A stretch of DNA of 64,000 nt from Thelephora terrestris (lineage: Eukaryota; Basidiomycota; Agaricomycetes; Thelephorales; Thelephoraceae): positions 1,475,250-1,539,249 of the forward strand of contig WIUZ02000010.1 in assembly GCA_015956445.1 (NCBI GenBank), in the 5' to 3' direction. The position numbers were made by a program, and so were the translations under genes. Position 1 is the first letter of the stretch; every line of letters begins with the position of its first letter. The notes under the pieces are model-generated. The model did not search any database. It was not told where the DNA came from and worked only from the letters and a program-made list of their open reading frames with translations. This document shows, piece after piece, positions 28,701 through 60,500 of the stretch.

Positions 28701-29404
28701 TGCTGGAACGGCGATACAAAATTCGTCACATTCGCATATCCGGCTACAACTCACGAGCAAACGGAGTCGTGGAACGACAACATCTACCAGTCCGCGAGGC
28801 GCTCATGAAGATGTGCGAAGACCAACCCACGAAGTGGACCACCCACGCTCACGCAGTGTTCTGGGCCGAACGTGTTTCTATCCAACGTTCTACACACAAA
28901 ACCCCCTTCTACATCGTCCATGGAGTTGAACCAGTTTTCCCTTTCGACTTCGCTGAAGCCACCTACCTCGCCCCAGTGCACCAAGCCAAGACAACGAGCG
29001 AACTACTGGCTCTTCGAGCACGGCAACTTCAACGTCGAGAAGAGGACCTGGAGGAGATTCGAGAGAAGGTTCAGAAGGCGCGATATGAGTCAATCGCTCA
29101 ATTCATCAAAGACAACGAGCATACCATCAAGGACTACGACTTCAAACCCGGCGCGCTTGTCCTCGTTCGCAACTCTCGCATAGAGACGAGTCACAGCCGC
29201 AAGTCTCAGCCACGATACTTCGGGCCCTTTGTGGTGGTTCGCAGAACCTTCGGAGGATCATACATTGTGGCCGAAGTCGATGGATCCACATCAGATAAGC
29301 GGGTGGCAGCCTTTCGACTCCTTCCATACTTCGCTCGCAAATCAATTCCCCTCCCTCCTTCGACAATGGTGAACATTCAGGCAGATGAACCAGACGATGA
29401 CTAG
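25763..29404 (+). CDS. pol: Pol: reverse transcriptase, RNase H, integrase, Gypsy element 1
   Basis: The frame of 1,213 codons has no internal stops. After a Ser/Pro-rich leader comes FLWPEEERLVTHLIL, then the RT: VYEPTNSSYRSRWFCVVKKDG, LLDLYVSFD, and the catalytic PYVDDVPIKGP near residue 380. RNase H follows (LAVDSS, KLELYSLFRAL, VDAKYIKG) and ends with GADGLSRRP near 666. The integrase zinc domain HDDLGHKG...CHACQQRQ lies near 845 and the core has HTDTMH, VTDNGPPF (about 967) and NGVVERQH, so all three acidic residues are present. A C-terminal GPFVVVRRTFGGSY block resembles the integrase tail. The product copies the RNA into DNA and inserts it. Some usually conserved RT positions differ (QGWTGSVAVLQGDMAHIL), which might reduce activity. 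Confidence 0.95.
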   Translation: MILDDSFGGDIHNSLPILPLRPCTPAHFSNPNFSASFCSSHFPTLTDSNASILPVPSLPLSCSSLFIKTLASPFKPITPLSKPPSPNQFSAYHLLRSSFARLPFPLLRTHLFRSLAYKKVENKICPVATTLPDEYRIVRRTHPSPLHNLPPLPHHAPPFLPGKRFTEERRQALALNSSGFLWPEEERLVTHLILMHEDGFAWSEMEKGSFSDEWFDPIVIPVIEHIPWAFRNIPIPAGIRDKVIQIIKEKTDAGVYEPTNSSYRSRWFCVVKKDGKSLRLVHSLEPLNAITIKDAAVPPHVEPLAESFAGRSVYSLLDLYVSFDQRRLDPRSRDLTAFQTPIGARRLTSIPQGWTGSVAVLQGDMAHILEEEIPQVTDPYVDDVPIKGPASRYILPDGSYEVDPENPGVRRFIREHLLDVSRVIQRVKAYGGTFSGPKAHIAVPDVVIVGHKCTFEGRVPDESKVQKIHDWPIPRSVTELRGFLGTCSVVRVFIKDFARIARPLTLLLKKDIPFEFGEEALAAMDHIKNAIVHSPALRPIEYSSDRTVILAVDSSNIVVGFILFQLGEDQKRYPSRFGSITWNERESRYSQPKLELYSLFRALKASRSHIIGVRNLVVEVDAKYIKGMIANPDLQPNATMNRWIAGILLFDFTLVHVPAYRHTGADGLSRRPRAPEDPIDLDDHEDWIDVANGFTISFSDSYIHRSLLTSLFARPPSLSSHPLTRCSSHFSLADSVLFSDDLTSSYTTPSLPLSSPSPPPPSPPPPSPPIPRSEKAITADLLISQIETFLSKGVPPNLPKPKLDRFIKSASRYFVHNDRLWRRQPNGTHQVIPPPHARYDILVQAHDDLGHKGVFIVRKRLLERFWWPMLELDVKWFVQTCHACQQRQMKKVLLPPTIPDLPTLFRKAHTDTMHLPKSAGRSYLVQARCALSAWPEWRGLAKETGQTLAKFIFEEIICRWGSLAELVTDNGPPFLAALEVLERRYKIRHIRISGYNSRANGVVERQHLPVREALMKMCEDQPTKWTTHAHAVFWAERVSIQRSTHKTPFYIVHGVEPVFPFDFAEATYLAPVHQAKTTSELLALRARQLQRREEDLEEIREKVQKARYESIAQFIKDNEHTIKDYDFKPGALVLVRNSRIETSHSRKSQPRYFGPFVVVRRTFGGSYIVAEVDGSTSDKRVAAFRLLPYFARKSIPLPPSTMVNIQADEPDDD

Positions 29405-41647: not shown

Positions 41648-42779
41648 TGTCGAGTTTGCTTGGGTTGTAGTGAAGAGGTCTATAAGAACTCTTACTAGTC
41701 CTTCTTGGTTTACTTAGAAGCTAAGCGTTAACAACTAAGTAGGCTGGTTGAGAAGTCAGTTATCCCGACTATCAACTCCACAGGGTGGGCGGGGTTTCGT
41801 ACTTTCCGGCTCCTTGTCCTGATGAGTTCGCTGAAGGAGGTTGTAGGTCCTTCAGATGTGTTCAGAGGGGTTCAGTAACCTTTATCACTACTGCACGTAT
41901 ATTCCCTGGTCCAAACACCTAGTAAGAATGTAAAGGAGGTTGCTGATCTTGATAAGAATGGAGTTCCTGATCTACGCTGATGATCGGGAATGGAGATAAT
42001 GATGTGTGAAACTGATACAATCGAGGCTGTGTATGAGGCTGTGAAGAAGGCTGTGTAGAATGCTGTGCACTGTGGCTGTGTAAGTGGCTGTGCTGTGGCT
42101 GTGTTAAGGGGGTGGCTGTGCTAATACTTCTGAGGCTGTGCTGATATGTCTGAGTGGTTTTGATGATCTGTCAATATACTGCTGAGGTGCGTCCAAATGC
42201 TGCTGAGATACGTCTGATAACTTGATACTGCTGAAACTTGAGAACCTGTCTTGATAAGATAAACTTCTTGATATGTCTGAGATACTGATATGTCGGATAC
42301 CAATGTGGTACTATTACTAAATCTGTCTGTCACCTAGTCAGTCACTAGTCTGAGGTAGAATACTCTCTGCCTGAAGGGTCTGCCTTCAGCACTAACAGAG
42401 ATAAGGATATTGCTACGTCACAGAGTCAAGTGTACTAAGCTTATTCAGAACTCCAAACTTAGAACTTATTCACACAGAGGTGGGGCTCAAAATGGTATGT
42501 GATTACTGAAAATCACTCAACCACTCAGGCCTAAGGAGGTGAGGCAAAGTAGGGGTCTTGGTGAAAAGGGGTAGAGTAAAAGAGGGTGGGTTATAGAGAG
42601 AAGAGGGGATAGAGGGGGCAACTACTGGCCAGTGGCCAACAGCTGTTGGGTAGAGAGAGAGAGGGGTAAAAGGTTATGGGTGAGTTGCCTTTCCTTAGAA
42701 CTGGGGGTGAGTTCTTTATATACTTTTTCATGTGAGATTATTCTAGAACGTTCTATGGCCTTCTACTGTATTCTATGGT

Positions 42780-42862
42780 AATTAATGGAGTGACAGACGT
42801 CACAAGCGTGACAAAATGTCACAAAAGCGTGACTGGTGTCACATGGGGTGTGACGTTCCGTC
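42780..42862 (-). promoter_or_regulatory. GTGAC/GTCAC array in the LTR promoter
   Basis: GTGAC or GTCAC occurs about eight times within some 80 bp, including TGACGTC (CRE/ATF-like), in both orientations, 60-140 bp upstream of the TATA box on the transcribed strand. The other LTR has the same array near 59877-59950. Confidence 0.55.
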
Positions 42863-42865
42863 ACC

Positions 42866-42960
42866 TTCTAGAACATTCCGGCAAGTTCCAGGATGTTCCG
42901 GCGCATTCCAGGGTGTTCCTGAACATTCTATAACATTCTGTAACTTTCCATGAGTTTCTT
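42866..42960 (-). promoter_or_regulatory. TTCC array with 10-bp period, heat-shock-element-like
   Basis: It begins with TTCTAGAA, a perfect inverted nTTCnnGAAn pair, followed by ATTCC/GTTCC/ATTCT motifs at 10-bp steps for about eight steps, and TTCCTGAACATTC in the middle (three alternating units). Ten-base spacing puts the motifs on one DNA face. It lies about 150-240 bp upstream of the TATA box. The same array is at about 59951-60050 in the other LTR. HSF binding is inference. Confidence 0.55.
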
Positions 42961-42963
42961 GTC

Positions 42964-43019
42964 CTTATCTAATCTTATCTTATCTGATAAGACTGTTATC
43001 TAATCTAATCTAATCTTGC
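42964..43019 (-). promoter_or_regulatory. GATA-site cluster at the start of the LTR
   Basis: TTATCT/AATCT units repeat, with CTTATCTGATAAG as a central palindrome; on the transcribed strand this gives several AGATAAG/GATAA motifs near the outer U3 end. Such clusters fit GATA-factor (nitrogen-status) control, by inference. Confidence 0.45.
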
Positions 43020-43139
43020 TGTGGTGAATTATCATAAATAATGACATGGTTGTTCTCATGTCCGACATCCGCGGGGAACTTTTAAACGATCGTCCCTGAT
43101 CGCAATCATCCCAACTAGTCTAGAACAATAGTGACTTAT

Positions 43140-43670
43140 TTATGATAATGCACATAAGGTAGCTGCAATACCTTGAACAGCATAGTCTTGAGAAAAGTCA
43201 AATCCTATGTCTTGGAGGAGATATTCGATGTGCCGTACAAATGACTCGTCGGTTTGCCCTACCATAAGGCATATAGACCAGGGGGCGCAGCGATGATGAA
43301 TAAGGAATATTCGGTTATTGTTGTTTCCTAACTGATTGACCATTGTCCGTAAGCGGGTGCGTTCGCTTTCGTTACAATATAGGTAGCAGAAAAGTTCGAG
43401 AGGGGTTGTCCAGTAAGTATCCAATCCTTGTGGATTTACGTGGTAGTGGATGATTTGCATGTGAAGGAGAGGTAGGGTGTGATAGTGAGATGGTTTTGCC
43501 GTTGAAGGTGATGTGCTGGCAGACTCGGTTTGTAACTACGTCAACTCCTTTTTTTGGGTTGTGTGTGTGTGGGTCCAGTCGAGTTGAGACGCCGATTCTT
43601 GTGTTATGACAATTTCGTGGGTCCGTCTTTCATTATTTAGGTAGACGTTTTCCCACGATGTCATATGCAT
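43140..43670 (-). CDS. Small cargo gene A, family Y, about 139 aa
   Basis: Two exons (43670-43647 and 43535-43140) join in phase; exon 1 ends in SWEN, matching the QWRS and QWEL ends of exon 1 in genes B and C, so the intron place is shared. Exon 2 encodes QTESASTSPSTAKPS, then the family pattern: WTTPLELFCYLYCNESERTR (Trp-x-Thr, helix, Arg), FLIHHRCAPWSICL (Ile-His strand) and QTDESFVRHIEYLL. It is the most diverged intron-bearing member, has a longer C-terminal tail, and lies between gene B and the 3' LTR. Only 37 bp separate its start from gene B's stop. No known domain recognised; soluble and unlikely to be a membrane protein. Confidence 0.5.
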
Positions 43671-43707
43671 GGTGGGTTAGGTGAGGCGAAGTACATGTGT
43701 GTAATTT

Positions 43708-44128
43708 CTAACCAGCGCGGACTCGTTGTTCGGTGGCTAGCCTATTATTAATTAATTCTATGAACTCGTCGTCGCTGAGGTAAGTATTGAGGCATAATGG
43801 TGGGTTAAGGAGGGGGTGGACAATGTAGGTAGTGTCCCATCCTGTGAGCAGGACGTCTTCAGATATTCTTCGGAGGAGGCGTCTGGCGCTCTGGTTTTGC
43901 TGGAGGTATTCGAGGACATCTTCGGGGGTTGCCCAGTTTAATCCCATGTAGTCGACTACAAGGATTTCTTCGTAGAAATAGGGGTGGTGGTGTACCTTCC
44001 AGGGCGTTTCCCAGGAAAGGCTGAGCGCGCGTCAAAATTCTTGATAAAGAATACGTAAGAAAACGAGCGTACGTGCTTCTCCATTGGCGGGTGCAGGGGT
44101 CTAAAATAAAGCAGTGTTGTGTGTCCAT
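43708..44128 (-). CDS. Small cargo gene B, family Y, about 122 aa
   Basis: Exons 44128-44073 and 44020-43708 join in phase (GT donor GTACGC, acceptor CTCAG), giving MDTQHCFILDPCTRQWRS then TLSWETPWKVHHHPYFYEE and LVVDYMGLNWATPEDVLEYL. The core reads W-x-T-P-E-D-V-L-E-Y-L...S-A-R-R-L-L, then TTYIVHPLLNPPLCLNTY, then LSDDEFIELINNRL. It aligns with gene C nearly end to end: both have DP-T-QW before the intron, DYMG-x-x-W after it, and YIVHPL. Shared intron position and collinear motifs show descent from one gene. Function unknown. Confidence 0.6.
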
Positions 44129-44530
44129 GAGGGTACACCGTAGAGTAAGCAGTGTTCTGGGGGGGGATAAGAACTAGGGGAAGGGAGAAAGAGAAAGGAA
44201 AGCGAGAGGAACACGCTGGTGAAGCAATGCGAATGACAAATATTAAACGTGGGGAAGAAGGAAGCCATATACGTAATAAGTAATGATCCGGTGCCGAAAA
44301 GAAGGAGGCACCAGGGTCTCGATCGAAACATTGTGATATACTAAAATAAAGTTTGATGGCTTGGTGAACTGGAGAAGGGTGTCATCATCGGAAGTCCCAT
44401 GATGAGATGATGAAATGTATGAATGATGAAAAGTCCGTTTATTCCTTGGTTGAACGAACGAAGGGGAAGGGAATAATGGGGGGTCGTAAACATAGGGGTG
44501 GCAAGGTAGGGAATACCGTACATAGGGTAA

Positions 44531-44966
44531 TTAAACGTTCCCGGAGTACTTGTCTGCTACCCTCTTTAAAGTATCCAGCCGTATAGTAACCTTGTGTAAT
44601 ATACTTTCCTCGCTGTCATGGGGGCCAAGGACTAGGGGTACCTCGAAAAGGGGGTGGACGATGTACATTACTCCTGCTCCTTGATACATGTAAGTCCAAG
44701 CTTGACGTGAGATCAGTTTTCGGGCGCTCTTCTTGGTCTTTAAGTATTCCAGGGCTTCGACGTCAGTCTTCCAGCCCTGTCCCATGTAATCAATGAGAGG
44801 TACGGTGTCGTATCGGTTGTACTGGTCTGAGCTTGGTGGGGTAGGGTTGATACTGGGGCCGATTTGAGGTCAGAATGTCAAAATATTGTGCATAGCGTAG
44901 AGCTTACGCTAGTTCCCATTGATGTGTTTTGGGATCTTGAACGTAGTAAACCAATTTTACTCCCAT
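44531..44966 (-). CDS. Small cargo gene C, family Y, about 126 aa
   Basis: Exons 44966-44908 and 44852-44531 join in phase: MGVKLVYYVQDPKTHQWEL, then AINPTPPSSDQYNRYDTVPL and IDYMGQGWKTDVEALEYL. The second half has KSARKLISRQAW, VMYIVHPLFEVPLVLGPHDS and EESILHKVTIRLDTLKRVAD. The donor GTAAGC and acceptor CCCCAG are standard. About 400 bp separate it from gene B, enough for its own promoter. The conserved His-Pro pair in YIVHPL and the Trp-x-Thr motif are the best family markers. Not recognised as any transposon or host protein I know. Confidence 0.6.
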
Positions 44967-45227
44967 GATTTCCGATGTGTAGGTTTTCTGGGTGCGCTGA
45001 GTTGGAATATGAAAGGCGGCCACAAAGACGAAAATCGTGAGAGGTTGTTTTGTTGTGACGTGGCGTTCTGGGTTGGCCGATATATTGAGTCATCATGATG
45101 ACAACTCATCGTTCCTCCATTTTAATTTGATCGTTCTTTTGATGGCGTTAATATGGTGGGATATACGCATAGATTTAATGGGGGAGCAGTTTTGTATCTA
45201 GATAGAGGAGGGTTACCGACTATACAT

Positions 45228-45515
45228 CTAGATATATGACCACGGGTCAAGTATAGACAGCTGGTATTCGAATAGTTCCTCTATATAGTCTTCGGACGTA
45301 TTGGGGTAGATTGTGATAGGATAATGGAGGAGATGGTGTCTAAAATAAACGATGGCCTCCGTGTTGCCTTGCTCTTGTCGGACAGCCTGGAGTAGGGCGA
45401 GGCGGGCGTCCTTATTCTCGTAATAGTGTTTGAGGAGTTCCTTTTCCGTTTGGAAGTCGGCTTTGGTGGGAAAAGCAAGGATTGATCGGGAACGACGGAG
45501 GGTCTTGGTGGACAT
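45228..45515 (-). CDS. Small cargo gene D, family Y, about 95 aa, intronless
   Basis: Starts MSTKTLRRSRSILAFPTKAD and then follows the family core: FQTEKELLKHYYENKDARLA, AIVYFRHHLLHYPITIYPNT and SEDYIEELFEYQLSIL. The Trp is replaced by Phe and the His-Pro pair by HHLLHYP, but order and spacing agree with genes A-C. It lacks the upstream exon and has instead a basic N-terminus. It lies 460 bp downstream of pol; a TATATTAAAA run near 45637-45646 could be its promoter. Confidence 0.55.
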   Translation of the reverse strand: MSTKTLRRSRSILAFPTKADFQTEKELLKHYYENKDARLALLQAVRQEQGNTEAIVYFRHHLLHYPITIYPNTSEDYIEELFEYQLSILDPWSYI

Positions 45516-45974: not shown

Positions 45975-48900
45975 CTAATGAGCAGATGAATCCAAATCAG
46001 AGTCTTGGGTTGCTTCCTGGTTACTGTCATCTGATGGTTCCTGGGAGATATCACTGTCGTTTCCGTTATCTTCCATAATCCGATTTGCCCATTGGTCTAG
46101 GTTTTGTCTTTGTACATAAGGGATCAATCTATAGGCAGCTACGTGGTCCAATAGTTCACTGCCATCCATTTCTTCAAGGACGTATGATCCTCCTTGGGTT
46201 TGTCTCACAATGCGGTATGGTCCCATGTATCTGTCGGCTGTCTTCCTTTCGATAGACACACTATTCTCAATCCGATTGTTGCGTACTAGGACCAAGTCAT
46301 CTGACTGATACGACTTTTTCCTTATTCGTCTAGCGAACTTCTTCTCATAAGCCTTCTTTGATTGGAATCTAGACTTTTTAAGAATTCTGCGTGCTCTAGC
46401 CATGTCTTCTGGGAGTCTTAAGAGCTGACGTGCTCTGGCTTGTACTAGTTCATCTCTGGTCATTCCTGGTTTGAAGTCTGTTACTAGAAACGTGGCATCA
46501 GTGAGGTCTCCTGGTAACAAGGGATGGACTCCGTGTAACAAGTAGTATGGGCTATATCCTGTCGCTTTTCGAACCGTGATTCGATCAGCATAGTTAGCTG
46601 CTTGAACAAAGAGAGGCCATTTGGATAGGTCTCCTTTGCATAACTTTACTAGGGCTTCACGGATGTTATAGTGTCCACGTTCTACTGCTCCATTGGCTTG
46701 GGAGTTATAGGGAGAAATTTTGATGTGACGGATTCCATACTTCTGGAGAAGATCAGAGAATTCCTTCCCAAATGAGGGTCCATTGTCTGTTACTACTTCC
46801 TGAACTATCCCATAACGGAGGATAATCTTCTTGAGGAAAAAGCGAGCCATGACTTTGGCCTTATCTCTTGCTATAGCTTTGCATTCTGTGACTCCGGAAA
46901 GGTCGTCCCTACAACTGATGAGCCATCGTTTTCCTTTTGCGTGAGGCATGCTCATAACGTCCACATGTACTTTACTGAACAGGCTTGGGGGGTGGGAAAT
47001 TGTGACTGGGATGTGCATCTTCTTGGTACTTCTGATTTGACAGGTGTGACAACTGCGTACGTGTTCCTTGATCTGATCTTTCATACCAGGCCAGTAATAT
47101 CGTAGGGTAAGGTGTTGCTCCACTGCCCAGACTCCGTGATGGGCTATGTCTTCATGAGCTTCCCATAGAATTTCCTTCTGTCGTTCTGCTGAGAAGATTA
47201 CTACTTGAGGAGGTTTTCCTGGACGTTGCTTGTACATATGGGCCCCTTTCAGGTAGAAAGGTCTGGCTTTGCTGAGGAACAACTTCTTTTGCTTGGTTGT
47301 TCTGAACTTGGGCGTTTTCTTGGTGACTAGGTACCTGAGAATGTTGTCAAGGTCCTGGTTGGAGTATTGATGGGTGGTGGCAACTGCATACGAGTATTTC
47401 ATATTGTCGTCTAGGAAGGTGTTATCACCTAAGTTGGGGAGGGGAAGGGTGTGAGCTGGGGAAAAGGAGGGTATAGGGGTTATGAAGGAGGGTCTTGATG
47501 TTTGAGGAGGGTTGTGGACTTCACTTGCTAGTACCAAACTGTCGATCCATTCTTCTGCATCTGATTCAGGGTCGTCATCTTCTTCATCTGTGGCATGTCT
47601 TCTTCTAGATAAAGCGTCTGGTCCCTTGTGTCTGTGAGCTGGAACATGTACTAGCTTGAAGGTAAACTGCTGGATTCCATTTATCCATCGGTTCAATACC
47701 GCTGGCAGGGTGTCTGGGTGTGCTAACATTCCTCGTATACTTGAAGCGTCAACTTCCACAATCAAATTCTTGACACCAGATATATGGGCTCTATATCTGT
47801 GGAGGGCACGGAATAATCCATAGAGTTCTAACTTTGACTGTCCATACTTTAGACTATATCCTGTTAAAGGAATAGATCCATATCTGGCTGGAGCACGTCG
47901 TCCGTTTTCATCTTCCTGGGAAAGTATCATTCCAATTCCGTATTCGCTGGTGTCTACAGATAATATGATTGGCTTGTCACTGGTATAGTCAATTGATCGT
48001 AGCGCTGGGGCCTTGGATACTTCTTTCTTGAGACAATCAAAAGCTTCTTGCTGTTCTGGTCCCCAAGTGAAATCTACTCCTTTTCGGGACAGATGTACCA
48101 AAGGTTTGGCAATTAGGCTGAAATTTTCTATCCAAATCCGGACAGTTCCACATAGACCAAGGAATCCTCTAACCTCCTTTAGGTTAATAGGTACTGGCCA
48201 GGATTCAATTTTCTTGGTACGGTTGTCTACTGGTTGACGTCCCTTGGCACTGCACTTGTGTCCAACAATTTCTACTTCGGCTTGGCAAAGCTGCATCTTC
48301 TTGGCTGAAATGGTTCCACCTGCTTCTCCTATCCTATGAAGGATTCTGTTAACGTCATTAAGGTGTTCCCATATATATCGTCTGATTCCTGGGTTCTCTG
48401 GGATGGTTTCTTCCTTACCATCAGGTCCTTGGTACTTGGTTGGTGGTCCTTTGATTGGAATGTCGTCAATGAATACACCTGCTTTGTCTGGAATTTCGTC
48501 TTGTAGAATGAACATCATACAAGCTTGGAATTCCGCCGGAGCATTGACATATCCCATGGGTAATGAGGTTAATCTGAAAGATCCTAAAGGGGTGTGGAAA
48601 GCGGTCAAGTCTCTACTGTGGACATCCAATACTCTTGCATGGAAACCCCAATACATGTCTAGGACAGTATAAACACTTCGTCCGGCATAGGCTTCCACGA
48701 ATTCTTCTATAATAGGAGGAACTGCTGAATCTCTGATGGTTATTCCATTAAGGCGTTGGAGGTCATGAACAAGACGTAAACTGCCATCCTTCTTCAGAAC
48801 TGAAAACCATCTGGATCTGTAGACTGTGTGAGCTCTTTCATACACTCCAGCCTTAACCTTTTCCTTGAGAAGGCTAATAATCTGGTCATATTTGCTTTGG

Positions 48901-49520
48901 GCTAGAGGAATGTTCTTCTCAATCCAGGGTTCATGTTCAATAGTCGGAATTACGTAGTCTGAGAAATAGTCATTACGGAAGGTTCCTCTTTCACTTTCAT
49001 CAAAAGCAATGCTTCTTTCGTTTAGGCAGAGGACCTGTTGTAGTAGCTTCCGTTCCTCAGGCCACAATTCATCGTGCTTGTCTATGGCTAGTTCATCCAT
49101 TCGTTCAGCGGTGATCTTGGTGGTAGGGATAAAGTTTGAGGGATGATGGGGTAGGATAGGGAGGTTTTGTAGGGGATTACCTGGGATTTGTCGTTGAGGT
49201 TTTTGGTGTTCTGGGATCTGTATGGCCACTGGTCGGACTTTCTGGCTGACCTTCTTGTATTTGAAGACAGCGCAGGGTTTTTGATGATAGTCGGAGGGTG
49301 GATCGGATTCCAGGTCAGAATCATCTTCTTGAGTTAGTAGGTCAGGTAAACTATCTTCAAAGTCTGGGTCGGAGTCATTTTCACCAGAACTCGTGTCCTG
49401 GGCTAATTGCGATGGGAGGTCGGAGGGACTATTTGTTGAAGGGAGAATTGGTGGAGAAGATATAGGTTTGACCCATACCTTCTTTCTGGGAAGTACTGGT
49501 TTTGCGAACTTGTGGGTCAT
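45975..49520 (-). CDS. pol: Pol of the giant element: RT, RNase H, integrase, intact
   Basis: From the ATG at 49520 (MTHKFAKPVLPRKKVWVKP) an uninterrupted frame of 1,181 residues runs to 45975; the frame is open 18 codons further up without ATG. A disordered leader is followed by DELWPEERKLLQQVLCLNE and the RT (VYRSRWFSVLKKDGSLRLVH, LDMYWGFHARVLD, GVFIDDIPIKGP near residue 350), RNase H (LSVDTSEYGIGMIL, KLELYGLFRAL, GPDALSRRR), integrase zinc domain (HEDIAHHG...CHTCQIR) and core (VHVDVMSM, VTDNGPSF near 912, NGAVERGH). All catalytic acids are present. The RT site is FIDD rather than the commoner YxDD. It starts 6.5 kb after the protease and has a TATA-like TTTATATC with a CT-rich leader just upstream, so it may be expressed as its own gene. 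Confidence 0.93.
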   Translation of the reverse strand: MTHKFAKPVLPRKKVWVKPISSPPILPSTNSPSDLPSQLAQDTSSGENDSDPDFEDSLPDLLTQEDDSDLESDPPSDYHQKPCAVFKYKKVSQKVRPVAIQIPEHQKPQRQIPGNPLQNLPILPHHPSNFIPTTKITAERMDELAIDKHDELWPEERKLLQQVLCLNERSIAFDESERGTFRNDYFSDYVIPTIEHEPWIEKNIPLAQSKYDQIISLLKEKVKAGVYERAHTVYRSRWFSVLKKDGSLRLVHDLQRLNGITIRDSAVPPIIEEFVEAYAGRSVYTVLDMYWGFHARVLDVHSRDLTAFHTPLGSFRLTSLPMGYVNAPAEFQACMMFILQDEIPDKAGVFIDDIPIKGPPTKYQGPDGKEETIPENPGIRRYIWEHLNDVNRILHRIGEAGGTISAKKMQLCQAEVEIVGHKCSAKGRQPVDNRTKKIESWPVPINLKEVRGFLGLCGTVRIWIENFSLIAKPLVHLSRKGVDFTWGPEQQEAFDCLKKEVSKAPALRSIDYTSDKPIILSVDTSEYGIGMILSQEDENGRRAPARYGSIPLTGYSLKYGQSKLELYGLFRALHRYRAHISGVKNLIVEVDASSIRGMLAHPDTLPAVLNRWINGIQQFTFKLVHVPAHRHKGPDALSRRRHATDEEDDDPESDAEEWIDSLVLASEVHNPPQTSRPSFITPIPSFSPAHTLPLPNLGDNTFLDDNMKYSYAVATTHQYSNQDLDNILRYLVTKKTPKFRTTKQKKLFLSKARPFYLKGAHMYKQRPGKPPQVVIFSAERQKEILWEAHEDIAHHGVWAVEQHLTLRYYWPGMKDQIKEHVRSCHTCQIRSTKKMHIPVTISHPPSLFSKVHVDVMSMPHAKGKRWLISCRDDLSGVTECKAIARDKAKVMARFFLKKIILRYGIVQEVVTDNGPSFGKEFSDLLQKYGIRHIKISPYNSQANGAVERGHYNIREALVKLCKGDLSKWPLFVQAANYADRITVRKATGYSPYYLLHGVHPLLPGDLTDATFLVTDFKPGMTRDELVQARARQLLRLPEDMARARRILKKSRFQSKKAYEKKFARRIRKKSYQSDDLVLVRNNRIENSVSIERKTADRYMGPYRIVRQTQGGSYVLEEMDGSELLDHVAAYRLIPYVQRQNLDQWANRIMEDNGNDSDISQEPSDDSNQEATQDSDLDSSAH

Positions 49521-49574
49521 GGTGACTCTAATAATTTTTTCTATAAAATCACCTGTACCAACAGGTACCCACAA

Positions 49575-51323
49575 TGAACGGAAAAAAAAAGAAAGAGAAG
49601 AAAAAAAAAAGATATAAAGCGCAGGGGGGGGAGGGAAAAATAAAGGGCGGGTGGGAGGGATGTAGTCTAATTTAATTGAGGGAGAGAGCGAGCGAATTTA
49701 AACAGAAATTGAGGAAATGGCGCGTAGATCGGAGGGTGTAGCAGTCGTGGGAAAAAAAATTGAGGGAAGAATATGCCAGGGAAGAGGCGGAAAAATCGAG
49801 ATTGAGAAAAATGGGGAGGAACAAGAACGAGGCCGCGGGGAACTTTTTCGGAGTGAAGTTACCCTTAGATAAGATTAACTGTAGGAAGAAAAATAAAATA
49901 CCAGATAGCGTGCACCCGCGGGGAACTTTTCGAAGTCAAAGTTCACCGGTTCCGAAAGTCTTTCAGAGGAGAAACTTACCGGTAAGTTGATGGGTCGCAC
50001 ACTGATCAGTCGAGGGTAGAGGGAACTAGGCTAAATTTCTTCGAGTGATGCGCAGGTAGATAGCGGTGATAGTATCAAACTAAATAAAAAGTCCGGCGGG
50101 GACGCTTGAGACCGTACGCAAAGAAAAACTAGTAAGTAGGGGAGGGGCGGGCGTAAAAATAAATCAGGACACGAGGCGGGGAGACACGAGTGTATCGATC
50201 AACGGAGGCGGGGTAGAGTCCGGGAAAATTTAAACAAAAATACGACGCGCGGGGTATGTAGACGGCGGGGCGGCGGTCAAGCGACGGAAGGAGAAAAGGA
50301 AGTGGGAGTGGGGAAGTAGGTGGGAAGGAAAAATAAAGTCGGGAGGGAAGTGAACGCTCGAGGTATATGGAAAGAGTGGGCGGCGTATACGGGCGGTGAG
50401 AAGATAAGGTGGGGTCGATGGAAGGAAGAGGGCGGAGGAGACGGTCTTGAGGCGCGAGTTCGCAGAACTCGGCTGGTCGAGAGAGAGGAAGGAGGTCTTG
50501 AGAGGCAACGAGTCTTGACGTCGCGGAGGTTAGTGAGTCCGGGGAAAGGGGAGAGGCTCGCTGCTTGTCAGGACGAGGCTAGGAGGAAAGTAATAGACGT
50601 CAGAATATACGCGAGAGGCAATTTGAAACGGGGTGAGGGACGAGAGAGAGAAAGGGAGAGGGTATAGAAAACAGGCAAGATCTACTCAGCAGAAACCCGT
50701 TGTCCCTCCAAATTTTGCTAGACTTCAAGATGTTGGGGAGACCTGGGACTGAGAGGGTGCCGATTTGTGCGAAGAGGTGAGATTTGAGAGGGAGGGGAGA
50801 GAAAGGCAAGGGGAGTAGGCAAAGACGAGAGAGAGGAAAAGGAGAGAGGGATTGGTGCTGCTGGAGGCGGCCGTTCGGCGTGAAAATGGTTGGAAATTGT
50901 AGGTTGGGGTCGGCGGATTGAGAAAAGAGAGTTTTGAGGGAGGCAGGGGTAAAGGCGGAGGTGTCGAAGGTCGAGAGGCAAGGTGTGTTTGAGGCGTGAC
51001 GCGGTCGACGCGAGGAGTGTACCGGGAGTAAACGAGCGAACGGGAGACCACGCGGAGGGTGGCAAACGTCGTAGAGTTGGACGGCCAGTCGGTTCGCCAG
51101 GTTCCGAAGGGGAAAGAGAGAGATGGTAGAAGGCAGGAAGGAGAAAGGTGAGGGATGTGGGGAGCGGAGTGAAGACTTTTCGCTTACCAGCGGAAGACGG
51201 GTTCAGGAACCGGAGTTCGGATCAAAGGTTTGACCGAATCCGATCCGGGTGACTGAGATTAGAATAGACAAGTGTTTTGATGGCGCGCGCGATAATGAAA
51301 ACGTCAGAGATGGGGCTGGGAGA
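49575..51323. other. Purine/pyrimidine-skewed leader region before pol
   Basis: Very GA-rich on the plus strand (CT-rich on the coding minus strand), with GGGAGGG and GAGAGAGA runs. All long frames here are composition artefacts. CCGCGGGGAACTTTT-like motifs occur at about 49833 and 49918 and also just inside the 3' LTR at 43069, so this motif is repeated within the element. The minus-strand TTTATATC near 49610-49618 may be the pol promoter. Confidence 0.5.
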
Positions 51324-53667
51324 TTACGAGTTCGTTCTTACTTTAGAAAACACCGACCGATTATTGTTAACATAGGAAGGGTGGTTTGCATGGGTGGCGT
51401 AGCTTGCGTTCGAGTTGGCGGCGTTGTCCGGGTAAAGAAGGTGAAGGGCGACTTGATAGAGTTGCTGGTAACGAGTGGTGAGGGCGGTAATTTCGAGGCC
51501 GTGTTGCTTGAGTTGGTGTTCGACGCTGGGTCTGATGGCGAACTTGAGGGACGCGATCTCCGACATTAGGACACTGTTCATGTCGCCTTGAGCCTTGCGC
51601 TGATCCTCAACGGTTTTGGCGAGCTTCTTGACTTCGAATTCTAGCGCCAGAACTTGATCGAGCTTATCTTTGACAGATCTCAATTCGACGCGCAGGGTCT
51701 CGACTTTGACTTCGAGCGCTTTGATCTGATCTGTCAATTGTGACAGCTGCTTCCGTACCTCGTTTGCTCTTTCGTTTGAGTTCGCAGTTACGGACCGGGT
51801 CTCATAGCGGTGGTTTGCCCTCGGATTGTTCTTCCAGGACCTTTTCTTATCGGCTCGGACGCTGTTCTCCTGCTCTTCAACTCGTTCGACCTCCAGTTGA
51901 GTTCGGTGAGTAAAACATCCGTCTGTGTATACCTGATTTCGAGCTCCCTCAACCGTGTCGTTAAGTCGCTTGTCGTTCCCTCGATCCGTTCTTTGAGTAC
52001 CACGATCTGCTGTTTGACGTCTTCAAGGTCTTCAAATCCGGGTCCTGGCGCGGGCGTGATTGCTGAACCTTCGGTACGTTAGACGTAATCTCGGCAAGAT
52101 GATTACCAGAGTTTTCGAGAGTACTTCCGGGTGATTCTTCCTTGATCAGGGGTCGGATCGTGGCCGGTTTCAGGCTTTCTTCACGGCGCTTTGCTTCAAG
52201 GTAAGTTGCATGTGTTCCCTTCGGTTGACAAACACTTTCCTATTCTCCTCCCCAGTATTCGCGTTTGCTGCACTCCTCACATTGGTGTCCTTCGTCATTT
52301 CGTATGTCAACTGGAGGATTCCGAGTTACCGAAGCATTCGCGGACGTCACGGCGATTCTTCCGGCTCTGGAGGCGTTCGAGGTATGGTGCTAAAAATAAC
52401 TTAGATTTGCTTGAATTCGTTCCAGAGCCTGCTTCGTTTTCTACGGGTGACGAGGGCGGTTTCCTCGGTGCGGGGATCAAAGGTAGCAGGGTACAATCTT
52501 GACAACGAATTGAGTTCTGCTTGGTGATCCTTGGCGTCCGGCAGTTCTCGTGATCTTCGGAGAGTTCGTCGGTTTCGATGTCGTCCGGGGTAGTATAGCA
52601 TTGGTGGAGAATCTGGGGCGAGATCCATAGAGGGATCTAGAACTGCAATAGTGGGTTTCCGGGTTCTTCGATATCGACTGCGGATTCAATGTACTCATAT
52701 GTCGGTTTTTCTGGATTTTTAGACATGTCACTTGCCTGGATTATTCCGGCCGCAAACGACCTTGCTACGTGGACATCCGAGGTGGTCTTTTCGTTCTGAT
52801 TGGGCAAAGGTGGCTCGGGCTCTCCCAAAGCTAGTCATTTTTTCGTTATCTCGCGATTTTGGGATATACCAGTGATCGCTTACTCAATTCCCCAGATCGG
52901 GAGCTTCTTTGATGGACTTCTTTGTGGGGTCGACACTTCCTTCGACGTCTCGTAACTTGTCTAGGACGCTGTCCACGGTCATCGGTTCGTCGGCTTTGTC
53001 CTCGACTGGTACGCTCGGGAACCTGTACGGCGGCGCTGAATCAGGTAAGATAAATTGTGGGTAACGGACTGATCGTGAAAGGGGTATTGCGGGGAACTGC
53101 TAAGTTTCTTGGGGCTCCGGTCCGGCTGGCGCATTTGACGCGAAGACTTGGACATGCGCGTTAGCTACGCGGGACGTTGGCGGTGGCCTCGGCGGTTCAT
53201 TGAGGTTGGCCGAGCTTGAGGCGTAAAGGCGGACATAGGCTTGTCCCTGGCGTACGTATTGGGAGGGGCCTTCGCTCCTAGTAGCGTTGCGCCGAACGCG
53301 AAGAACGAGTGATCTCCGGGGGGTAACATACTCTCTTCTAACTGGACGAGGTGGGCCGCCGCTAACAGTCGGGAACTTGGTTTTCTGGAGATGGGATTTC
53401 GACGTCCATTACTTCTTCCATTGGCTGGTCGCCTTGCCCTGGTAAGTCGTGGTTCAGACTTGGTCGGACTAGGCTGACTACCCTTCGAGGGTCGTTTCGG
53501 GACTGCTGTTGAGGATTGTTAGCTGCAGGACACTTCCTACAACCACAACAACACTCACCATTCGAGGTGGGCTCCGTCTTGGCTGAATCTTGGGGTTGAT
53601 CTTTGAGTTTTGGTGATATTTTGTCCAAGGTGCGTTCGACCTCTTTATACCTTCTGGTGCTCCCCAT
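51324..53667 (-). CDS. Cargo: multi-exon gene for a coiled-coil protein
   Basis: The likely start is MGSTRRYKEVERTLDKISPK (53667), followed by Cys/Pro and Gln-rich pieces. Between 52.4 and 52.9 kb a protein-like frame gives SKNPEKPTYEYIESAVDIEE and then DDIETDELSEDH. From 52190 downward the exons are clearer: IRPLIKEESPGSTLENSG, a short intron, SAITPAPGPGFEDLEDVKQQ, then RLRELEIR, another intron, VERVEEQENSVRADKKRSW and a long heptad coiled coil (LTDQIKALEVKVETLRVEL and on), ending in VFSKVRTNS at 51324. Introns follow GT-AG rules. It is not a retroviral domain; it lies between protease and RT on the element's coding strand. Overall exon structure is incomplete. Confidence 0.45.
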
Positions 53668-53899
53668 AATTTTATTCCTTGGTGGTCCTATCCCTTTCTA
53701 GGTGTACAAAGGTTTCTACAGGGTCTCCACCGGTTTGTGCATGTTTCCGAGCCCTTTTTCCGTCCCATGTGGGCCTCAGACTCAGACGCGTGATCGGAAG
53801 TCCTGTGGGTCACTTCCTAATTTGGTAAGTGTTTCTTCTTCTGCTTTCTCGTTTCCTCGTCGGTGTCACTGACTTCTTTATCCTCCTTTCCTTGGTTAG

Positions 53900-56080
53900 A
53901 TTTCTCTGGATCCTGGGTTGAGGGCTTGTTACCTCCATTCTTCGCAGGTAGCACGCGTCGGACTTCGATTGTTCCGTCATCCAATTTACTAATTGTGTAA
54001 GTTCTTATTTCTTCATTCGCGACCCATCGGGTCCCTACTCAATTCATCTAGCACTCCTTCCAGCTCATCCTGCTCCATTACATTCCACATTACTTCGTGT
54101 CCCTCGGGGTGTTTTGCCCTTGAATTCTGAGCCGAAGACCCTTATCCGCTTTTTTCGGTACTGCAGGTTCCGACGGTTCCGGTACGTATGTTTGCTCTAT
54201 GTTGTTGTTGTCTGGATCGTAATTAAACGCATCCGGATATTCGCGCAGAATGTCCAATCCGGCTTCCCCGGGTCTTGTCGGTATTGTTCCCCATACACGG
54301 CATGGTTCCTCCGGGTGATGATTGACTACCCGGTTCCGACCGTTGCGTCATTCGGTGCCTGGCGCCTTTTTGACTTCTTGTTTTCGTCTTCGGTTCCTGT
54401 TCGGTGAGGTTCCCTTTCTTCCGTTATTCCTTGCACTGCCTTTGCATTTTCCGGGATGGCCGTGCCGTCTCTGGATCCCATACGGTCCATTCGTGATTGT
54501 TGTTGGGGTCATTGCTCTCTGCCGATAGGTTTCCTTTCGAGGTAAGTCTCGATATGTTAGGCCTGTATCTTTCGCGATCGGGTACCACTGTTCTTCATTC
54601 TCGTCTTCTTCGTCCGTGCTCAACTCCTCAAGTCCTATTCGGCCTGGATCGCTGGTCGTCTGACCCATTCCATTCTTCGTGAATTGTTTCAAGTTTCCCG
54701 TACCGCGTGGTAAGTCCCGATATGTTTTCTTCATGTTTCCTTGATCGGTTAACCTTGATTCCACAGAACTTTCTTCTTCGTCAACGCTGGTCCCTCGAGG
54801 TTATTCGGACTGGATCCGGGTCGTTTGACCCATCTCTTTCCATTCCCATCGGTCTCCATACGTTTCTTGTGTCAGTAAAGTTCGGATATGTCGTTTTTGT
54901 GTTTTCCGTGATCGGTAATTTTTTGTTGATTAGACCTTTCATCGTCTTCTTCGTCTGGCCCACCATAGCTATTGTGGGCTGGATTCCAGGTCGTCTGACC
55001 CATCCATGTCCATTCTTCTCAGTTTAGGAGGTTTTTCCATGTCGGTAAGTGCGGATCTATTGAATTCGGTCTCCCACTCGTTTACCCACTCATTGTCTGT
55101 GCTATCTAGTCGGCATTCTGGGTCCCTAGTACTGCTTCCGTTGCAAACACGCAGGCTTCTACGGCCACTGATCGTTCACGGCCTCCGGTTCTCCTTTGTT
55201 CCGGTGCTCCCTTCGTTCGCACGATTGCATGTACCTTCGGATTCGTCTCCTTGGGCCTTCTCGTAAGTCGTCTCGTACGCCGTGTTCGCGTTACCTTGGC
55301 GATGGTGACTGATTTTCTTCCTGTAGGTTCCATTTTCGTTTCCGGGAGGTTGGTAGGGTTGAGGCGGATCCGGTTCAGGGTAGCGAGAGTTTGAGAGGGT
55401 TGAGGGTTTTCCGGGTGGGGTGGCGTAGATACTTCGGTTTCGTATGGGTCAGGGTCGTTCGTTGCGGCCTATCTTCATTCTTTAAGTCTTCGCTACATAG
55501 CCTTGTCACGCTTCTGGTCGCGCATGCTTTCTTTCGTTCGAGTTCACACAATGCATTCCATTCTTCGTCGGAAGCTCCTTCCGGACCATTTTAATATATG
55601 TTTCGTACAGGTCCGAACTAATGGTATTTTCGTTCGACTGTTTATTTATATCTTCGTCCGAATATTCTTCCGTCCCCTTTTCGCGCGTGGTTTCCTCCAG
55701 CTTCCGTAGATCTTCTTCCGTCCCGATCCGTCCGATTTCATCATCTGTCTCGCTTCTTCTGTCGTCTTCATCAAGCACTAGCGCTTCGCGTCGTTTGCGC
55801 GGGCGTCGGTGGGTCTTCTCTCGCGATCGTTACTGGTGAGTAAATAAAATCATTTTCTCTTTCCTCCAGGGCTTTCCGTTTCGACGCCGGCCATATTACT
55901 TCCGATCACGAGGCTTCCTTCTTCTTCCTCGCTGTCCGGTACCTCGCCTTCTTCAATTTCTTTATTCCTCCTATTGCGTATACTCTTGCCTGGTAATCCT
56001 GTGGTTGATACCTATAATTTTTGTTGTTTCTTCATTGTCCCGAGATCCATATGTAGAGGGGAAGGGGTCTGATTTTTCGC
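53900..56080 (-). CDS. Cargo: acidic, repeat-containing reading frames (fragmented gene)
   Basis: Minus-strand pieces read as an acidic disordered protein: NKEIEEGEVPDSEEEEGSL near 55950, DEDDRRSETDDEIGRIGTEE near 55770, and, between 54.35 and 55.05 kb, about three tandem units of roughly 180-250 nt carrying MGQTTSDPGR or MGQTTWNPA followed by DEEDE acidic runs and YRDLPR. Units are in different frames now, so small indels have accumulated, or exons change phase. No known domain. The region directly follows the protease on the coding strand and replaces the expected start of pol. Confidence 0.35.
54540..55060 (-). repeat. Imperfect tandem repeats of about 180-250 nt in the acidic cargo region
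   Basis: On the plus strand each unit shows GGTAAGT or TCAGTAAA then CGGATATGT/CGATATGTT, a TTCTTCGTC block, GGCCTGGATC/GGATTCCAGGTCGTCTGACCCATCC and a CCATTC block. Three units are visible. The repeat is protein-coding in origin (MGQTT and DEED motifs). Confidence 0.6.
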
Positions 56081-56109
56081 CAACCTTTATTGGTAATAAT
56101 TCTCAAATG

Positions 56110-58629
56110 AGAATTCCTACCATCTTCTATCCAAGTGGCTTATGGTCTACACCCCATTCTCTTCCAAGCAGTAGCTGAAATCCTGCATTCTTTTTACGTA
56201 GAGATTTCCGGGTGCCATAACTCTTCCTTTTGTAGTCTTCATTGTCATCTCTGCACAAGGTATCATTCCTGCACATTGGGAGAGATTCCGTCAACTGACA
56301 TCATCGGAATCCTGTGTTCCTCGGCGTTGGACCAAGGTATGCCTGCTGCTTCTATTAACCTTTGATTAACAATGTTGAGTTGGGATCCACTGTCAAGACT
56401 CCAGTCATCATAGTCCCTGCCACATTGACTGGTATCTTGATCAATCCATCCCTGGGCACTGTTACCGTAGGCTCCACAAGGTCTGTTTCATCTTCTTGAT
56501 CATAGTCTTCTTCATCTTCTGATTGTTCCTGGACTACAGCTTGAAATGGTTGCTGTTCTTCTTTTCAATCACCTCGGCGAGGAGGCCAATTTTCTGCTGC
56601 GTTGGGACAGAGACCTCATGCCCTTGTTTCATTGCGCTCACAAGGCCTCGTCGCAAAGAAGGCGCAGCATCGATTGCTTCCTGTACAGTTAGGGTAATGT
56701 TGGTGTTTAGTATTTTAGTGGCAATTGCTGAACTGTCTGGCTTCTTGGTAGTCCTGGGATTAGTGACTTTGGGACCATTGGTTTGCTCCAAATGCGCCGA
56801 GTCCTTCCTATTGTAGTTAGTAGGCTTTGCAGTGACCTCCTGGTCAACCTCCATTGGAAGCAACTGGTTGTCCGTTTACCTTTAATTACGCCCTTGTTGG
56901 GGTTAGAGGCAGACCGGATGTTCCCCGTCTGGTTGCTGTTAAGATTGACGTGATTCTTGATTGGGTGCTGTGGCCTACCAGGACTCTTTGCTTCCCTGCT
57001 CCTGGGGCTTCTCATCCCTTGGGGTCGGCTAGGTAAGACTTGCTGTACCTTCTTTCTGTGTTCCTTGCTGATTTGGGTGGTCCTTTCAACACCAAAGCTT
57101 GACAGTGTTCTACCTCCCAGAGGTCCATCCTAATTCCGCTTCTTGTTCATCAGTATCAGCATCGTTCTTCATACCTATCCACTCCTATGTAGTTACACGC
57201 AGTTTCCAAAGTAGGGTTGTATGGCAAGGCTTCAGCATAATGGACTTCAGCTGCAACATGTTTAGTAATAGCTTGTATCCATGTCTCATTAGGTGCTCGG
57301 TAGATTCTTGAGTTGTCAGGCCACTGTAACCGTCCTGACGTTGGGTCCTTTACTATCTTCCCAGCTTTTACCAATTTGTTATTTCCTCACATGCCCTAAT
57401 GTGGTGACCTTGCTGTCCACAACCAAAACAGGTGTAGTTCTGTCCGATTGGCGTTGGGGCCTGTTGGCCATAGAGAACTTTGAGGAGGGGGTTGAGACAT
57501 TCTCTGGGGTGATGGATTGAAAGGTGGTCGATAGGAGGGATTGGTCCTTGTCGTGACTGGGGGTTGGTGATTGTTGGTTGCCAAAGTTCTGATGAGGTGG
57601 TAGATCCCTCTGGAATGGTCTTCTAGGTTGATTTGGTCTTGCTGAGTTTCGGTTAGGAGGAGGTTTCTACGTAATTCTGGAGATGTGGGTACTGCTGAGC
57701 AAAGTGTACATATTTGACCCAGTACTGGGGGTCATCAATCTTGAGGTTACTCAGGTCATCCACTAGCTGGTTGAAGTCTTCATCCTGCTTTCCTTTGTGC
57801 TTCTTGGTCTTGTGGGTAACTTAGGAGGAGATTAGGTGGAGGTCAGGCGGTGATCTTGTGTTGGATAAGAGGCTTTGGTTCATCTCTGATTCGTCTTCTG
57901 AGTTATATCCTGAGAGCTTAAATGGCTTAGTGGATTCCTCTTGGTCTGACCTCTCTTCTTCAGAGGACTGGTATCCCCTTTAGGTTGCCAGGTGCTGATC
58001 AAACTATAGGTTTAAGGACTGAATCAGCTCCTTCTACTATTCTGCAATGCTGAATGGCCACTGTCACATCTAAGTGAGGTGGAACCTTCTCATCTGGGCT
58101 TCAACTTGTCGCCTGAAGGAGCATTCAAACCTTCCCAGAAATATCTGTTGACATTCTCAGTGGAGATCTTCCTCATTTCTCTGGCACGTCCTACCAACTG
58201 AGGAATTTGATTTGATTTTCTTGAATCTGTCAGGGTGTCCATTCGACGTTTCTCCATTTGGTAGTGAAGGCTTCAATTTTTCCACATTCAGGGATCCTTG
58301 CTTGTCCCCAAAGAAGTAATCGAGCTCAACCCAATAGAGTTCCATAGTCCCTTTTGGCATGGGAAGGCAAGTTCGCAGCAGGTTAGCGATCCAGGGCTAC
58401 AGTATCGAATGAGTCCTTGATACTTTCCTTTGATGAGGGACGTCATAGCGGTTGCATAGGTGGTTATATTCCTCCAAGAAGGGCTCAAGGTATTGGCAGC
58501 TCCTGTGAAGGTTCTGGTGCACGTGATTGTTGGGGGCTGGTAATTCCAAGTAGGATTTGATTGAGTAAGGAGGTCTTCAACTCCATTGAAGGGATGTTGT
58601 TCGTTTTCTGTATCTGAGATATAAGTCAT
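56110..58629 (-). pseudogene. gag: Decayed Gag-protease of the giant element
   Basis: The start ATG at 58629 (MTYISDTENEQHPFNGVEDL) lies about 90 bp inside the primer site. Capsid-like sequence follows in shifting frames (GTMELYWVELDYFFGDKQGS). A zinc knuckle CFGCGQQGHHIRAC is at 57389-57430, followed by KIVKDPTSGRLQWPD, the counterpart of the post-knuckle block in element 1. At 56863-56534 lies the pre-protease segment (ITLTVQEAIDAAPSLRRGL), and at 56394-56377 the active site DSGSQLN, then LLLGREW near 56150. At least three frame changes or stops lie between these parts, so this copy cannot make full-length Gag. Order and motifs match element 1 closely. Confidence 0.8.
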
Positions 58630-58717
58630 GTTGGTTGATGTAGAGGAGATGGAGGGAGATGAAGGTGTGATGGTGGGGAATGGTGTTTGTGGTGATAAGA
58701 TGGTGGTTTTATTGAAG

Positions 58718-58735
58718 CCCTCGCCGTGGGCTCCA
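58718..58735 (-). other. Primer-binding site of the giant element
   Basis: On the minus strand, TGGAGCCCACGGCGAGGG begins two bases after the LTR (TC spacer). It differs at one position from the site of Gypsy element 1, supporting both the orientation and the common ancestry of the two elements. Confidence 0.85.
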
Positions 58736-58737
58736 GA

Positions 58738-60154
58738 TGTCGAGTTTGCTAGGGTTGTAGTGAAGAGGGTCTATAAGAACTCTACTAGTCCTTCTTGGTT
58801 TACTTAGAAGCTAAGCGTTAACAACTAAGTAGGCTGGTTGAGAAGTCAGTTATCCCGACTATCAACTCCACAGGGTGGCGGGGTTTCGTACTTTCCGGCT
58901 CCTTGTCCTGATGAGTTCGCTGAAGGAGGTTGTAGGTCCTTCAGATGTGTTCAGAGGGGTTCAGTACCTTATCACTACTGCACGATATTCCCTGGTCCAA
59001 ACACCTAGTAAGAATGTAAAGGGGGTTGCTGATCTTGATAAGAATGGAGTTCCTGATCTACGCTGATGATCGGGAATTGGAGATAATGATGTGTGAAACT
59101 GATACAATCGAGGCTGTGTATGAGGCTGTGAAGAAGGCTGTGTAGAATGCTGTGCACTGTGGCTGTGTAAGTGGCTGTGCTGTGGCTGTGTTAAGGGGGT
59201 GGCTGTGCTAATACTTCTGAGGCTGTGCGGATATGTCTGAGTGGTTTTTTGATGATCTGTCAATATACTGCTGAGGGTGCGTCCAAATGCTGCTGAGATA
59301 CTCTGATAACTTGATACTGCGGAAACTGAGAACCTGTCTTGATAGATAAATTCTTTGATATGGTCTGAGATACTGATATGTCGGATACCAATGTGGTACT
59401 ATTACTAAATCTGTCTGCACCTAGTCAGTCACTAGTCTGAGGTAGAATACTCTCTGCCTGAAGGGTCTGCCTTCAGCACTAACAGAGATAAGGATATTGG
59501 CTACGTCACCAGAGTCAAGTGTACTAAGCTTATTCAGAAGTCCAAACTTAGAACTTATTCACACAGAGGTGGGGCTCAAAATGGTATGTGATTACTGAAA
59601 ATCACTCAACCACTCAGGCCTAAGGAGGTGAGGCAAAGTAGGGGTCTTGGTGAAAAGGGGTAGAGTAAAAGAGGGTGGGTTATAGAGAGAAGAGGGGATA
59701 GAGGGGGCAACTACTGGCCAGTGGCCAACAGCTGTTGGGTAGAGAGAGAGAGGGGTAAAAGGTTATGGGTGAGTTGCCTTTCCTTAGAACTGGGGGTGAG
59801 TTCTTTATATACTTTTTCATGTGAGATTATTCTAGAACGTTCTATGGCCTTCTACTGTATTCTATGGTAATTAATGGAGTGACAGACGTCACAAGCGTGA
59901 CAAAATGTCACAAAAGCGTGACTGGTGTCACATGGGGTGACGTTCCGTCACCTTCTAGAACATTCCGGCAAGTTCCAGGATGTTCCGGCGCATTCCAGGG
60001 TGTTCCTGAACATTCTGTAACATTCTGTAACTTTCCATGAGTTTCTTGTCCTTATCTAATCTTATCTTATCTGATAAGACTGTTATCTAATCTAATTTAA
60101 TCTTGCTGTGGTGAATTATCATAAATAATGACATGGTTGTTCTCATGTCCGACA
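58738..60154 (-). repeat. Right copy of the 1.42-kb LTR (5' LTR in element orientation)
   Basis: 1,417 bp; TATA box on the minus strand at 59803-59811. It carries the same TGAC, TTCC and GATA arrays as the left copy. Differences from the left copy are scattered single-base changes and 1-2-bp indels. Confidence 0.92.
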
Positions 60155-60500
60155 ACGCCGGTGCGATGCATTTCCAGTAATGTGCCCCGCTCTCGGCATG
60201 CTTGCAGGCAACGGATAACTGATTCGTCACGGTGTTTACCTTTCTGCCAGCTCCATTCTTTGGGGAGTCAATCACGGTCAGATCTTTGATTGACACCCGT
60301 TCCTTTGATATAGATGTGAATGTTTGCTCATGATATTCTAAAGATTTCCTATACCTTCGCGTTGTTGTTCACCTCATCATCACCGACGAGGTCGATGACC
60401 TCTGCCATGCTCTCAGATAACTTCCTCTTCTTGCTTGTATGAAATGGAGGTATGTTCGGCAACTGTGCTCCGCCAGGTAAGCTCGATGCCATGATTGGAG
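60155..60500 (-). pseudogene. Two-exon gene truncated by the giant element
   Basis: Exon 1 starts at about 60492 (MASSLPGGAQLPNIPPFHTS) and contains KKRKLSESMAEVIDLVGDDE; an intron (GTATAGG...CAAAG) ends near 60304, and exon 2 gives VSIKDLTVIDSPKNGAGRKV then NQLSVACKHAESGAHYWKCI up to the LTR. The Cys/His-Trp-x-Cys pattern at the break recalls the start of a BED-type finger in hAT-like transposase proteins, but too little remains. The left flank of the element does not continue this frame. Confidence 0.45.

Follow-up and report, generated by a model that had tools for sequence, protein, structure and literature searches.

What are four small genes doing between the integrase and the 3' LTR of a retrotransposon, and do they belong to it? 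The question is raised by the window, the whole 64,000-nucleotide stretch analysed here (C2:1475250-1539249 within the 40.6-Mb genome of the ectomycorrhizal basidiomycete Thelephora terrestris). The minus strand of the window carries an 18.5-kb Ty3/Gypsy-type element with a cassette of four such genes, named A-B-C-D in element order. The extent given for this cluster in an earlier note on the DNA, from a first ATG at 45515 to a last stop at 43140 on the minus strand, is borne out. The features of the element are as follows.

58738..60154, minus strand: 5' LTR, 1417 nt, TGTCG...CGACA, aligned to the 3' LTR
58718..58735, minus strand: primer binding site, 18 nt complementary to the tRNA-Lys 3' end plus CCA
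56266..58700, minus strand: gag/protease region with zinc-knuckle-, DUF4100- and protease-like pieces; frame broken in this assembly, Pfam matches below curated cut-offs
49916..49930, minus strand: internal copy of AAAAGTTCCCCGCGG in the pol leader (sequence match)
49833..49847, minus strand: second internal copy of AAAAGTTCCCCGCGG (sequence match)
45975..49574, minus strand: pol, an ORF of 1199 aa with RT, RNase H and integrase; Pfam RVT_1, RT_RNaseH, Integrase_H2C2 and rve above cut-off
45228..45515, minus strand: gene A, 95 aa, no intron; slot 1, occupied by gene E in some other copies
44908..44966 (exon 1) and 44531..44852 (exon 2), minus strand: gene B, 126 aa, one intron; the basis for exon 1 includes NCBI model P0008 of another copy
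44073..44128 (exon 1) and 43708..44020 (exon 2), minus strand: gene C, 122 aa, one intron; the basis for exon 1 includes NCBI model P0009 of another copy
43140..43460, minus strand: gene D, 106 aa
43069..43083, minus strand: AAAAGTTCCCCGCGG one base before the 3' LTR, at the polypurine tract position (sequence match)
41648..43067, minus strand: 3' LTR, 1420 nt, with three perfect heat-shock elements at 42741, 42866 and 42916
42741, 42866, 42916 and 59830, 59953, 60003, minus strand: heat-shock elements GAANNTTCNNGAA, perfect matches

The assignment to Ty3/Gypsy follows from the two LTRs with TG..CA ends, the pol order RT-RNaseH-integrase and a tRNA primer site adjoining the 5' LTR. The gag pieces (zinc-knuckle, E = 8e-5; DUF4100, E = 0.007) are both under the cut-off and lie in a broken frame, to which assembly errors may contribute. 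Alignment of the two LTRs gives 7 substitutions but 19 one- or two-base gaps, 17 of them of one base. Indel errors in the assembly are therefore probable, and some of the broken frames (gag, C43 and one D) may not be real. Four of eight non-element matches to the primer-site pattern that were fetched were called as tRNAs by ARAGORN, with the anticodons mis-set by an intron; the Lys anticodons TTT and CTT were read by eye in two of them. Nine other LTR places were examined, eight of which are three elements and five apparent solo LTRs, while that on C37 is a 5' LTR followed by internal sequence. Target duplications of 4 bp were read by eye at all eight other insertions with two outside flanks. 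None was found at the two flanks of the window copy, the right flank of which (60155-60173) is identical over 19 bases to C59:31070-31088 (L092), whereas the left flanks differ. Together, these observations make it probable that the window copy arose by recombination or belongs to a duplicated segment.

Several kilobases lie between gag and pol (49600-56200, minus strand), and the element is unusually long on that account. A 232-aa coiled-coil-like ORF is present at 51327-52022 (best Pfam match ATG14, E = 2e-4, under the cut-off), and a CT-rich leader with an acceptor-like site was noted by eye ahead of pol. The plus strand of the window holds a second Gypsy-type element at 23085-29404, in which the frames of both gag-protease (893 aa, DUF4100) and pol (1213 aa) are open. 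Its pol is approximately 41% like that of the cassette-bearing element, and there is no cassette match beside it.

With two mismatches allowed, AAAAGTTCCCCGCGG occurs three times in the window versus 0.19 expected; genome-wide there are 38 occurrences, compared with none for the reversed control. Twelve of these sites lie no more than 120 nt behind a D gene, at the position of the plus-strand primer, a further 22 are found up to 9.5 kb upstream in the element they share with D (those that were read stand in the pol leader) and four lie elsewhere. AAAAGTTCCCCGCGG has the appearance of a non-purine 'polypurine tract' that also occurs internally. The six perfect heat-shock elements (GAANNTTCNNGAA) in the window all fall inside the LTRs, three in each; 1.08 would be expected, and none of 100 shuffles reaches six. 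The element may be induced by heat or stress, as is ONSEN in Arabidopsis.

Genes B and C each contain a phase 2 GT..AG intron, of 52-55 nt directly after QWEL in B and of 51-55 nt directly after QWRS in C. Counting broken copies, the B intron was recognised in 14 of 15 copies (the C60 copy has no visible exon 1) and the C intron in all 16. NCBI gene models of two other copies in the same genome (on the contigs of C1 and C7) have equal spliced lengths (P0008, 126 aa; P0009, 122 aa), and the T. terrestris database proteins P0009 and P0024 are 97-99% like window genes C and A. Gene models vary among copies, and P0017, P0030, P0031 and P0032 fuse slot 1 with B. Three introns had been proposed from the window sequence; those of B and C are conserved, but the third, following an exon ending in SWEN before D, is not supported. 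In the 13 copies aligned at this point, TGG is found in two (the window and C59:12k), TGA in ten and a gap in one.

The resemblance between the four genes that had been noticed in the window reflects real homology as judged by profile comparison and shuffling. Alignment with hhalign gave E = 1.1e-12 for A/E against B/C, 1.1e-4 for B/C against D and 3.5e-4 for A/E against D, and in each of the three comparisons none of 200 column shuffles reached the real score, which argues that A/E, B/C and D are one family. The predicted models of D and C, compared by order of elements rather than by superposition, each hold the order strand-helix-helix-strand-strand-helix. The family was described at the outset as matching none that is known, and this still holds for the databases searched. 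No Pfam match exceeded the curated cut-off for any of the 12 rows of A2 or the four accessory proteins (the best was RRM_PARP14_3 for A, with E = 0.0059), and PDB sequences and folds yielded no convincing match and none pointing to function. No transmembrane stretch was predicted in A-E using the 19-residue Kyte-Doolittle mean as the sole measure (the highest value was 1.41, in B, with A, C, D and E lower).

Across the genome, D was found at 29 places (31 rows, two of which are second pieces), with C, B, A or E matches at corresponding places. A clade integrase lies upstream of 21 of the 29 D genes; LTR sequence follows seven of the other eight, the eighth (C2:477k) not having been read on that side, giving 28 of 29 beside one or the other. 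The earlier note had held that matches occurring only as host genes unlinked to LTR elements would speak against it, and the outcome was the opposite. Among the matches listed, all 21 clade integrases (at least 72% identity) have a cassette downstream, the distance from integrase start to D being 2.4-6.0 kb in 20 and 13.5 kb in one. The listed integrase relatives at about 50% identity or less have no coinciding cassette match (by eye; 110 of 179 candidates were scored).

The cassette-bearing elements fall into three subfamilies with integrases that are approximately 82% identical. Group 1 (15 cassettes) has the order slot 1 (A, or E instead)-B-C-D, and groups 2 and 3 (seven cassettes each) have E-X-D, as read in C3, C60 and C45 for group 2 (D only in C3) and in C8 for group 3; the LTR behind the cassette was read for group 1 copies. 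In a tree of 25 selected rows, D forms one clade (support 100), B, C and X form a second (80) and E a third (73); the support for the placement of A is 48. Since these clades span the subfamilies, the paralogues are probably older than the subfamilies. The proposal of an accessory family that resides inside a Gypsy-type element and expanded by duplication is thus upheld, whereas the alternative raised alongside it, a host gene cluster trapped once between LTRs, is not supported, given the matching groups of E, X/B/C and D across all three subfamilies.

Some individual loci depart from this plan. A pol-bearing copy at C59:694971-699771 (merged loci L076, L044 and L014) has a 270-aa ORF between pol and A, and the approximately 190 bp upstream of A match the window. 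Insertions, seen mostly from coordinates, interrupt cassettes at C5:1119262-1130994 (about 12 kb, between B and C) and C2:474316-477585 (about 3 kb, between C and D). The locus at C1:159101-162262 (L024) has an 84-aa E-like ORF and a C-like gene that is broken, with no D or integrase match; it is either a remnant or the sole relative lying outside any recognisable element.

No integrase match accompanies eight of the cassettes. In four of them (two on C1, one each on C5 and C56) the sequence breaks off at approximately pol codon 26 and resumes 49 bases beyond the pol ORF. Those on C23, C3:934k and C2:470k share a different form, in which the pol leader is followed by a C-like gene remnant and then by A-B-C-D, and the copy on C60 is an older relative of this form. 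The cassette genes are open in 26 of 28 cases in the seven closest pol-less copies versus 21 of 24 in six pol-bearing copies, a count that leaves out the frameshift-ridden C43 and in which D of C2:477k is judged from the genome search match alone.

For pairs with dS of at least 0.1, NG86 dN/dS is 0.00-0.18 for B, 0.13-0.44 for C, 0.13-0.51 for D and 0.15-0.83 for A, and for E it is 0.19-0.41 with dS saturated (rows dropped: C43 for C; C2:978k for A, truncated; C1:4567k for D, frameshifted; C1:159k for E, dS undefined). The A allele of C59:694k gives 0.57-0.83 against window-type alleles, and the ratio is 1.25-1.26 for two recent E pairs, each value resting on one or two changes. These values indicate purifying selection on B, C, D and E, and on the codons of the cassette for the most part. 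D and E nevertheless diverge about four times faster than integrase: between subfamilies, at dS of 1.6-1.8, dN reaches 0.48 in D and 0.60 in E, compared with 0.12-0.13 over the C-terminal 326 aa of integrase.

Divergence is also distributed unevenly along the cassette. D is 76-85% identical to the window in eight copies in which B is 95-98% identical. The window and C16 are 92-100% identical in all other segments but 85% in D and the stretch before it, and other copies differ in slot 1. In AU tests on 11 copies, the trees of the B-C stretch, C and D reject one another (p from 3e-3 to 2e-56); the SH test rejects five of the six pairings, the exception being the C tree on B-C data (p = 0.08). 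This pattern indicates that alleles are exchanged between copies, and template switching or gene conversion among related elements would give such a pattern. Copies that are otherwise nearly identical carry allelic blocks at D and slot 1, and pol-less copies have intact genes; both observations would also suit products that control copy number or superinfection by restricting rival copies, with allele exchange altering their specificity. D alleles diverge with dN/dS well below 1, however, and we regard this explanation as unlikely.

Another explanation would be that cis-acting RNA or DNA signals are what maintains the 3' region, with the ORFs as passengers. Pol-less copies do retain the whole stretch, and the flanking non-coding DNA is likewise conserved between close copies. 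Against this stand the codon-level purifying selection, the high proportion of open genes in the pol-less copies and the 37-57% protein identity that D and E hold where synonymous sites are saturated, making it very unlikely that signals alone account for the cassette. Host genes of a symbiosis- or effector-like kind, captured as cargo and kept because they benefit the host, are a similarly unlikely explanation. Small intron-bearing proteins of no recognised family in a fungus of this lifestyle would fit, as would the locus on C1 with neither a D nor an integrase match, but nearly every D gene lies beside clade integrase or LTR sequence, and the matching groups across subfamilies imply long residence in the element. 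In addition, T. terrestris is the sole named species with relatives among 5.8 billion proteins, the others being from metagenomes. Env-like or particle proteins that aid particle formation or release, as ORF3/env does elsewhere, would occupy just this position, and the bdelloid TelKA2n keeps an env-like ORF while lacking most of pol (as described in part of PMC5408684), yet such a role is improbable for several paralogues of only 95-126 aa with no transmembrane-like stretch and with profile similarity to their own pol or to the neighbouring element's gag not above reversed controls.

Selection on the proteins, residence in the element, retention without pol, surviving introns, no membrane-like segments and fast divergence are together better fitted by regulators of the nuclear phase than by env, particle proteins or host cargo. 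We therefore give an even chance to the reading that A-E are element-encoded accessory (regulatory) proteins, resembling the accessory genes of complex retroviruses in where they lie, how long they are and how they evolve. New insertions continue to carry the introns; the template of reverse transcription would therefore remain unspliced, and the proteins would be made from spliced mRNAs. Pol could be supplied in trans, while the products of the cassette presumably could not easily be borrowed; as pol was lost and the cassette kept, the proteins would most likely act at the locus or transcript of the copy that encodes them. They might do so at an early nuclear step favouring that copy, either by letting the locus or transcript escape silencing or by exporting unspliced RNA, and, as host defences change, the paralogues and allele exchanges would be the element's response. 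A host-interaction factor, as suggested at the outset, is possible. We favour relief of silencing over RNA export: the former is a reasonable prospect, if short of an even one, the latter (or RNA handling) is doubtful, and another role (packaging, integration or one unknown) is quite possible. On the other side, pol-less cassettes could have been kept for cis-acting DNA, or the loss of pol could be recent, and exchange between copies blurs the histories of individual copies.

Complex retroviruses such as the lentiviruses have several small genes 3' of pol, spliced mRNAs, a tRNA-Lys primer and an internal copy of the plus-strand priming site. The Thelephora element resembles them in its small genes 3' of pol, the spliced mRNAs predicted for it, its tRNA-Lys primer and its internal priming-site copies; it differs in that no env was recognised, in that the small genes are paralogues of one another and in its fungal host. 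Plant LTR retrotransposons carry additional sense ORFs between pol and the 3' LTR (aORF-3S, env-like) with unclear function, which are similar in position, orientation and presence in most copies, and splicing is reported for barley Bagy2; compared with those covered in the cited part of the source, the Thelephora cassette has at least four small paralogues, two of them intron-bearing, no transmembrane stretch, allele exchange and a fungal host (PMC7264820). The LTR elements of bdelloid rotifers have acquired varied ORF3 genes 3' of pol with spliced messages, and the non-autonomous TelKA2n retains its ORF3 without most of pol, but these encode env, GDSL, DEDDy, TM or coiled-coil proteins and are set apart by description, so far as the cited part of the account goes (PMC5408684). 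Two analogies for the proposed function are CERV of Cer1 in C. elegans, an accessory protein from a spliced mRNA that is needed to export unspliced genomic RNA (PMC10309623), and VANC of the Arabidopsis VANDAL transposons, related element-encoded anti-silencing proteins with diverged targets (PMC5735166). As presented in the cited parts of these two papers, CERV is one protein rather than a paralogous set and VANDALs are not LTR elements, and the likeness is by analogy, not by sequence.

The literature listings contained no earlier description of a fungal cassette like this one, with introns, allele swapping and paralogues of an unrecognised family. Additional ORFs 3' of pol were already known, usually with unclear meaning; here, one genome offers 29 places, spread over three subfamilies, at which a paralogous cassette can be traced, and among them are natural swaps, copies that lost pol and alleles that are still intact. 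This makes it testable whether fungal retrotransposons, like complex retroviruses, need several regulatory proteins, and against which step of host control. Tentatively, fungi may harbour 'complex' LTR retroelements that arose independently of complex retroviruses, with a multi-gene, intron-bearing accessory region evolving by duplication and allele exchange in an arms race with host silencing, and with pol-less derivatives keeping the genes that act on their own copy.
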